Shown here in pieces: positions 30,028 to 31,797 of a stretch of 64,000 nt of DNA (position 1 is the stretch's first letter; every line of letters starts with the position of its first letter). A model generated the notes under the pieces. The model searched no databases, was not told where the DNA came from, and was given only the letters and a program-made list of their open reading frames with translations. The stretch lies in the NCBI RefSeq assembly GCF_003788635.1, contig NZ_AYKH01000006.1:1-64000 (forward strand), read 5' to 3'. The stretch comes from Salinisphaera orenii subsp. orenii MK-B5 (GTDB taxonomy: Bacteria > Pseudomonadota > Gammaproteobacteria > Nevskiales > Salinisphaeraceae). The translations under genes were made by a program, and so were the position numbers.

Positions 30028-31797
30028 TCAGGCTTCCGGCAACCAACCCGACTGCTCGATGGCACCGAAGATATCGGTCTCGGTGGTGATGCCGAGCAGC
30101 TCGCCGTCCTTGTTGGCCACCAGCAGGCGACTGATGTTCTTCTCGGCGATGACGTTGGCCGCCTCGTGCAGGTGCGTCTCGGGCGCCACCGTGACCACCG
30201 GCCGCGTCGCGATCTGGCCGACGTTGATGTCGGTCGGCGACTTGTTGTCGCGCACGATCTTGGTGACGATGTCGCGCCGGGTCATGATGCCCCACTCGCC
30301 CGAGTCGTTGGGCTCGACGACCAGCGACGAGACCTCGTTCTTGCGCATCTCGTGCATGGCGTCGTGCACGGACGTCTCGTCGGTGACCGTGATCAGCGAA
30401 CGCGTCATCACATCCGAGACCGACGTCGGCGTACGGCCGCTGGCGATCATCTCCTCCATCGGCTGGAGCAGACGCCGGATCTCGCGCTGCTTGCGCTCGC
30501 GGGCGAGCTTGTCCGAGCGCTGCTGGCGCTTGGTCTCGAGATCGATGCCGCCTTGGATCTGCTCGATCAGCGCATCCGCGAACTGGCTGGTGCCGACTTC
30601 TGTGGCGCCTTCCATGTTGCGGGCGAAGTCGTAGGTCACGATGCCGTCAGCCAGCACTTCCGGATACGCGAGGCTGATCAGATCGGCGGCTTCCTGCCAG
30701 CCGAGGTATTCGAGCATGTTCACGCCCGAGAACAGCAGCGAACCGGGATTGACCTTGTTCTTGTCGGCGTACTTGGGCGCGGTCCCGTGGGTGGCCTCGA
30801 ACACGGCGATGTTGTCGGACATGTTGGCACCCGGCGCGATGCCGATACCGCCGACCTCGGCCGCCGCCGCGTCCGAGAGATAGTCGCCGTTGAGATTCAT
30901 CGTGGCCAGGACGTCGAAATCGTCCGGACGCAGCAGCATGAGCTGGAAGATGATGTCGGCGATGCGGTCCTTGATCACGATCTTGCCTTCCGGCTGACGA
31001 CCGTTGTACTCGGAGTACAGCTGGTCCTCGGTGATCGTGCAGTGGCCGAATTCCTCCCGCGCGACTTCATAACCCCAGGCACGGAAAGCGCCCTCGGTGA
31101 ACTTCATGATGTTGCCCTTGTGCACCAGGGTCACCGATTCGCGGCCGTTGTCGATCGCGTACTGGATGGCCTTGCGCACCAGGCGTTTGGAGCCGAACTC
31201 GGAGATCGGCTTGACGCCCAGGCCGGCGTCCTCGAAGAACTCCGCGCCCATCTCCTCGCGCAGGAACTTGGCGAGTTTCTTGTTATCGTCGCTGCCCGAC
31301 TGCCACTCGAGGCCGGCGTAGACGTCCTCGGTGTTCTCGCGAAAGATCACCACGTCGACCTTGCCCGGATCCTTGAGCGGGGACGGCACGCCGGCGTAGT
31401 GGCGCACCGGGCGCACGCAGGCGTAGAGATCCAGCGACTGGCGCAGAGCCACGTTCAGCGAACGAAAGCCCTCGCCCACCGGCGTGGTCAGCGGGCCCTT
31501 GATCGCGACCCACAGGTCCTTGATCGCCTCGAGGGTCTCGTCCGGGAAATAGTCGCCGTTGTAGATGCCGGCGGCCTTTTCGCCCATGTAGAGCTCGGCC
31601 CAGTGAATCTTGCGCTTGCCGCCATAGGCCTTCTCCACCGCCGCATCCCAGATGCGCAGGCAGGCCTTGCTGATGTCCGGGCCGATACCGTCACCCTCGA
31701 CGAAGCCGAGGATGGGGTTGTCGGGAACGTGCATGGTGTCGTTCTCGACCGTGATCTTCTGCCCGTCCTCCGGCAGACGCACATGCTTGTAGGCCAT
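30028..31797 (-). CDS. icd: NADP isocitrate dehydrogenase fused to a C-terminal CBS pair
   Basis: 589 residues, about 170 more than the usual 416-418. Residues 1-415 are a complete E. coli-type NADP-dependent enzyme: Ser113 ([10 protein letters not shown]), the site phosphorylated by AceK in E. coli, is conserved, as are [17 protein letters not shown] (337-353) for NADP binding and [14 protein letters not shown] near the core end. A charged, probably helical linker (416-455) leads to two CBS motifs, [20 protein letters not shown] (459-478) through GIMTRRDI, and [20 protein letters not shown] (526-545) through [10 protein letters not shown]. The frame is continuous with no stop or shift. A CBS pair usually binds adenine nucleotides, so I infer energy-charge control at the TCA/glyoxylate branch. 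An AAGGAG site precedes the ATG. Confidence 0.96.

Follow-up and report, generated by a model that had tools for sequence, protein, structure and literature searches.

A conserved fusion of NADP-isocitrate dehydrogenase with a CBS pair, a putative nucleotide sensor, in Salinisphaera and other Gammaproteobacteria

Isocitrate dehydrogenase (ICD) sits at the point where a cell chooses between burning its carbon in the TCA cycle and saving it through the glyoxylate shunt. In the window analyzed here, which comprises 64,000 nucleotides of contig NZ_AYKH01000006.1 of Salinisphaera orenii subsp. orenii MK-B5, the ICD gene does not stop at the usual end of the enzyme, but continues into a pair of CBS domains. 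What are these domains doing on this enzyme? Judging from the sequence, we think it moderately probable that the product, icd-CBS, is a type-I NADP-ICD with a putative built-in adenine-nucleotide sensor, i.e., a Bateman module.

A complete enzyme followed by a CBS pair

The icd-CBS gene (30028..31797, minus strand), identified from its open reading frame, Pfam and NCBIfam matches and genome searches, encodes a 589-amino acid NADP-isocitrate dehydrogenase with a CBS pair. Its frame runs uninterrupted for 589 codons from an ATG at 31797 to a stop codon at 30028–30030, and a Shine-Dalgarno-like AAGGAG, read from the sequence (31807..31812, minus strand), is separated from the start codon by nine bases. 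This 589-residue frame bears out the preliminary description, which had proposed that it stayed open past the normal ICD end and through a charged linker into two CBS domains.

The catalytic core corresponds to residues 1–414 (30556..31797, minus strand). The NCBIfam equivalog model TIGR00183 (prok_nadp_idh) matched residues 3–414 with 637.7 bits, above its cut-off of 567.3, and Pfam Iso_dh matched residues 32–409 with 286.7 bits. The best match among solved structures, 2iv0, covered residues 1–415 (551 bits), and in the best 60 of 114 matches to solved sequences the best stretches all ended by residue 415. Residues S113, N115, R119, R129, R153, Y160, K227, D281, D305 and D309 did not vary among the 60 fused or the 35 plain ICDs. 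The 60 fused proteins also agreed in Y343, Y389 and R393, while position 342 was K in 59 of them and R in one. Substrate, metal and coenzyme roles were assigned from E. coli Icd, in which we take the equivalent residues to be S113, N115, R119, R129, R153, Y160, K230, D283, D307, D311, K344, Y345, Y391 and R395, our K342 corresponding to K344. All of the substrate, metal and NADP residues in this checked set were present in the icd-CBS of the window, which predicts a working NADP enzyme. The earlier claims that the enzyme is complete and has gained a domain, and that Ser113 and the NADP-binding residues are conserved, thus hold: TIGR00183 scored over its cut-off, Pfam found CBS twice, and the residue set was invariant in the fused proteins.

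The core is followed by a linker (residues 415–455; 30433..30555, minus strand), defined from the alignment and the structure model and mostly helical in the latter. It is charged, with 11 K/R and 7 D/E among 41 residues, and E439, R442, P446 and G454 were invariant in 60/60 fused proteins. In a model of residues 390–589, residues 420–453 formed a single helix of moderate confidence (pLDDT block means 60–75) and the CBS pair had block means of 89–97; we consider this model reliable for the CBS pair only. The AlphaFold model of the full-length chain had low confidence (mean pLDDT 51.3, pTM 0.32), with a poorly modeled core, and given this pLDDT the domain interface was not read from it.

Pfam detected the tandem CBS domains (PF00571) as two stretches with 92.5 bits, against a cut-off of 24. 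Together with the alignment and the model, this placed CBS domain 1 at approximately residues 460–516 (limits set by eye; 30250..30420, minus strand), with the motif G503-I-M-T506-R-R-D509, and CBS domain 2 at residues 526–580 (30058..30222, minus strand), with the motif G569-I-T-T572-E-T-D575. T506, D509, G569 and D575 were invariant in 60/60 fused proteins, as were W502, P533 and R557; position 572 was T or S in 60/60 and G503 was kept in 57/60, with many of the 60 sequences being close relatives. We take G-h-x-T/S-x-x-D to be the CBS ribose/phosphate motif, and on this basis read T506/D509 and T572/D575 as two candidate nucleotide-site motifs, one in each domain.

The mean share of the majority residue fell from the core (0.86) through the linker (0.70) to the CBS pair (0.645). 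In six sequence pairs, partly non-independent, dN/dS was 0.02–0.12 for the core and 0.07–0.25 for the CBS part (0.07–0.14 in five); three pairs gave similar values for both parts, whereas in the remaining three the CBS value was 2 to 6 times that of the core. These ratios indicate that purifying selection acts on both parts, more loosely on the CBS part.

A Foldseek comparison of the CBS part with the PDB gave 440 fold matches at E 0.001 or better, all of them CBS proteins among the matches listed. The top matches were the CBS-CP12 entries 5nvd and 5nmu. Lower-ranked ones (2rif, 4gqy, 9s52, 9s4x, 5x9g and 9s4y) were titled as holding AMP, ADP, ATP or Ap4A. By sequence, the closest were 9zni, MJ1225 (3kh5), 9znf and CBS-CP12, the last with a profile match of 76.7 bits; MgtE, OpuCA, MJ0100 and IMPDH chains were also among the sequence matches. 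CBS modules often dimerise, and CBS-CP12 is hexameric by its entry title. The CBS pair and linker might therefore serve mainly in assembly, holding the dimer together or building higher oligomers, with no regulatory ligand, and the conserved linker, its modeled helix and its four invariant residues would fit such a role. We nevertheless consider it unlikely, since assembly alone leaves unexplained why, in 60 proteins, each CBS domain keeps its T/S and D without exception although many other positions vary. Loss of the module from lineages that kept the enzyme (see below) also argues against it.

Spread, gain and loss of the fusion

A search for the combination of ICD and CBS across genomes, suggested in the preliminary description as a check, came out in favor of the fusion in each set searched, i.e., 41 genomes, named records and a class sample. 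The full fusion was found in 18 of the 41 genomes (our own and 40 relatives). Two others (G014 and G016) had an ICD of ≈420 residues without CBS, and the remaining 21 had a distant homologue at best (≤174 bits). When the C-terminal part was used as the query, the same 18 genomes matched with 191–369 bits, the next best match having 56 bits. A scan of named records with two narrow linker peptides, which reaches close relatives only, yielded 35 loci, all with a full-length fused frame. One of them, L047 from Salinisphaera halophila YIM 95161, was 99.7% identical to our icd-CBS over 589 residues. By record title and genus placement, 31 of the 35 presumably belong to Salinisphaerales/Nevskiales. 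The other four were titled Gammaproteobacteria only (L053 and L080), Endozoicomonas (L048) and Verrucomicrobia (L072). In the tree, the ICD-CBS proteins of L048 and L072 grouped within Salinisphaera and Nevskia, and we suspect that these two labels are wrong.

Across a sample of the class Gammaproteobacteria, scored for up to nine candidates per genome, the CBS part matched in 23 of 369 genomes (151–312 bits; next best, 85), and fusion to ICD was confirmed in 22 of these. In G259, one of the 22, a contig end cuts off the nine N-terminal residues, and the fusion in G212 spanned both ends of its contig. A sample of the phylum gave two matches at E 1e-30 in 398 genomes, both in Gammaproteobacteria. 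By family label, the carriers among the 41 genomes and the class sample fell in 18 families; the 41-genome, named-record and class-sample sets overlap (L047, for example, is G012). Altogether, 60 distinct fused sequences were gathered from many genomes. Because the same fusion recurs in all of them, a local sequencing or assembly error in our source genome (3.67 Mb, 98% complete) is excluded. The icd-CBS fusion is real, old and conserved.

A tree of the ICD core was built from 95 sequences, 60 fused and 35 plain, the latter chosen rather than drawn at random, and rooted at its midpoint. All 60 fused ICDs and four plain ones formed one clade of 64 with a support of 100/100, and the branch leading to it measured 0.84 changes per site. 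The fused/plain label required four changes on this tree, of which three were forced by starred branches. The module was probably gained once and lost two or three times (at least two, with three probable), and the true number of losses may be higher, given the midpoint root and the choice of plain sequences. The lineages that we read as having lost it are L117, whose placement is weak (95/57), L112, which ends within the linker and retains ≈25 linker residues in frame, and L148 with L149. The last two are plain ICD relatives (84–85% identical), in which icd is still flanked by glutaredoxin and CinA-like homologues. Since these neighbors are still in place, the CBS module was removed at its old site. 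A tblastn search beside the plain ICDs L148, L149 and L117 found no CBS remnants (no match with E below 0.26). Loss in two or three lineages implies that ICD can work without the CBS pair; like the greater variability of the CBS part, this counts against a sensor role.

In the window, the upstream neighbor of icd-CBS, outside the fusion, is a Grx4-family monothiol glutaredoxin (31871..32212, minus strand; TIGR00365, 141.7 bits, cut-off 117.1). Downstream lies a CinA/MoaB-like protein (29202..29963, minus strand), which scored under the cut-off of every model listed. Its homologue is found directly 3' of icd-CBS in 29 of the 35 named loci, and a CinA/MoaB-like match occurred in one of 20 loci outside the order (L093).

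Isocitrate lyase, AceK and other isocitrate dehydrogenases

The genome of the window encodes an isocitrate lyase (PRK06498, 1017.8 bits). The branch point between the TCA cycle and the glyoxylate shunt, at which the preliminary description had placed icd-CBS, therefore exists in this organism. Pfam ICL matches were found in 37 of 39 carriers, 35 of them in frames of at least 430 residues and two (G007 and G340) partial only; the other two, G071 and G259, gave no Pfam ICL match. The further proposal of regulation on top of AceK phosphorylation fails here. PF06315 had no match in our 98%-complete genome, whereas the E. coli control was positive, and AceK was found in one of the 23 class-sample genomes that matched the fused CBS part (G252), compared to 46 of 243 genomes with plain ICD only. 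This difference is not significant (p = 0.09), and replacement of AceK was consequently dropped as a statistical claim. Ser113 is no sign of AceK, because all 35 plain ICDs kept it just as strictly.

Our genome also has a second IDH, of the NAD type (PRK08997, 542.3 bits, cut-off 510), and, of the 21 carriers from outside the order, seven had a second, plain ICD, in each case within ≈1 kb of isocitrate lyase. Therefore, icd-CBS alone need not control the branch. We also observed a second kind of plain ICD, represented by nine frames (L104–L108, L115, L116, L121 and L123) that exceed the usual length by ≈27–45 residues and have an insertion close to the C-terminus. Fusion carriers contributed seven of the nine, and in them this ICD lies within ≈1 kb of isocitrate lyase.

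Monomeric IDH (PF03971) had no match in our genome. Among the 41 genomes, 14 had the fusion only, 21 had monomeric IDH only, four had both and two had neither; in our genus, 6 of 14 had the fusion, the other eight had monomeric IDH and none had both. The two are near-exclusive among these 41 genomes only (Fisher p 1e-5, a statistic that ignores their kinship). Outside the order, monomeric IDH was found in one of 21 carriers (G111) and in six of 20 chosen plain-ICD genomes, and the near-exclusive pattern is therefore not claimed there. G016, with neither the fusion nor an intact monomeric IDH, contained a 30-bit PF03971 piece with four stops. This degraded gene (L155, G016:C38, 3684–4085) adjoins a stand-alone CBS gene, and the ICD of G016 has no CBS.

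In five Salinisphaera with monomeric IDH, a separate 143-residue CBS-pair gene was located two genes 3' of idh, before an HtpX-like gene so named by eye (L150, 4769–5197; L151, 4871–5302; L152, 4511–4942; L153, 3213–3644; L154, 4714–5145). This CBS gene is also present in our own genome (L159, 4119–4538), with no idh match within the 9 kb read, and a link between idh and the separate CBS gene was for this reason rejected as part of the finding.

A broader proposal would be that a broad gammaproteobacterial ICD lineage internalised energy sensing, with adenine nucleotides on the CBS pair directly switching the isocitrate branch point in place of the phosphorylation by which AceK acts in E. coli, and that the order of Salinisphaera mostly keeps either this enzyme or monomeric IDH. 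We offer it tentatively, with the balance somewhat against it.

Candidate ligands and comparison with known systems

Starting from the observed fusion, its conservation, the motif and the predicted CBS fold, we infer that in an ICD homodimer the two CBS pairs would pair up and that the paired modules would bind an adenine nucleotide (AMP, ADP, ATP or Ap4A). The linker helix could then relay the change to the dimer, altering how active it is or how it oligomerises. Where a carrier has isocitrate lyase but no AceK, energy state would thereby directly set the split of isocitrate between the TCA cycle and the glyoxylate shunt. As for direction, that AMP/ADP activates the enzyme and ATP inhibits it is a guess, little better than even.

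Sites for AMP, ADP, ATP, Ap4A, NAD and SAM, most of which are listed as Bateman ligands in the available part of PMC8822347, appear indistinguishable in these sequences. The pair might respond not to the AMP/ATP ratio but to a stress alarmone, Ap4A for example, and thereby link ICD to stress, a possibility that we regard as distinctly unlikely. CBS domains are the binding site of Ap4A in AcuB, in a CBS pyrophosphatase and in B. subtilis IMPDH, AcuB illustrating how a CBS pair accommodates it (PMC13039410, in part), and AcuB with Ap4A was among our fold matches; however, mononucleotide and Ap4A sites look alike in these sequences.

MgtE, OpuA and MJ0100 are CBS proteins with ion, NAD or S-adenosyl-type ligands, and Salinisphaera is a salt-adapted genus. 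A response of the icd-CBS pair to such ligands would agree with the MgtE, OpuCA and MJ0100 chains among its sequence matches, and yet it seems very unlikely to us. Many named carriers are titled Solimonas, Nevskia or Fontimonas, genera that are not generally halophiles, and the conserved T/S-x-x-D fits ribose binding, although NAD or S-adenosyl ligands might share this fit. NAD and S-adenosyl methionine are indeed among the Bateman ligands named in the consulted portion of PMC8822347.

The same source describes the CBS pair DarB binding pyruvate carboxylase under the control of c-di-AMP (PMC8822347, in part), which could suggest a similar response here. No DAC-family cyclase was found in any of the 39 carrier genomes (39/39), whereas the control search detected it in 11 of 14 known genomes. 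The lack of a diadenylate cyclase in these carriers makes c-di-AMP unlikely, and we give this ligand almost no weight. For an adenine-nucleotide sensor, which remains our preferred reading, the natural CBS-less relatives L148 and L149, together with core-only and full-length enzyme, make the question directly testable.

The ICD-CBS fusion is apparently uncharacterised in the open literature, a new combination of two known parts. Searches of open-access PMC papers for isocitrate dehydrogenase with CBS/Bateman domains, for CBS architectures and for CBS-CP12 brought up no description of it; subscription papers or protein databases may well list the architecture. In the available text of PMC5715377, PMC4720418, PMC7460673, PMC3111988, PMC3561365, PMC8822347, PMC8556138, PMC7820114 and PMC4578398, IDH and CBS were mentioned in unrelated places only.

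Compared to type-I NADP-ICD (TIGR00183, E. coli Icd), icd-CBS has the same complete core, with Ser113 and the coenzyme residues kept, but carries ≈175 extra residues of linker and CBS pair and forms its own clade on the 0.84 branch. IMPDH is likewise a nucleotide-regulated dehydrogenase whose chain includes a CBS pair. Its pair, however, interrupts a barrel enzyme, the fold of which is unrelated, whereas that of icd-CBS is C-terminal on ICD. The best fold match to the module is cyanobacterial CBS-CP12 (5nmu, 5nvd), in which CBS is fused to CP12, a Calvin-cycle regulator and not an enzyme (PMC7921703, in part). AcuB, acting on the deacetylase AcuC, and DarB, acting on pyruvate carboxylase, are CBS pairs that bind adenine dinucleotides (PMC13039410 and PMC8822347, both in part); they are separate, trans-acting proteins, whereas the pair of icd-CBS is fused in cis. 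The diatom PtIDH1 also carries an extra C-terminal domain, in this case a calcium-binding EF-hand on a type-II NAD enzyme (PMC7460673, in part). The likeness to icd-CBS lies in the added C-terminal domain, while enzyme type and domain differ. In the textbook case of E. coli Icd, control by AceK acts at the same branch point, but covalently and through a separate kinase/phosphatase. Compared with AceK, a conserved ICD fusion with a probable nucleotide sensor, spread over 18 family groups, points to a second, simpler solution at this branch point.
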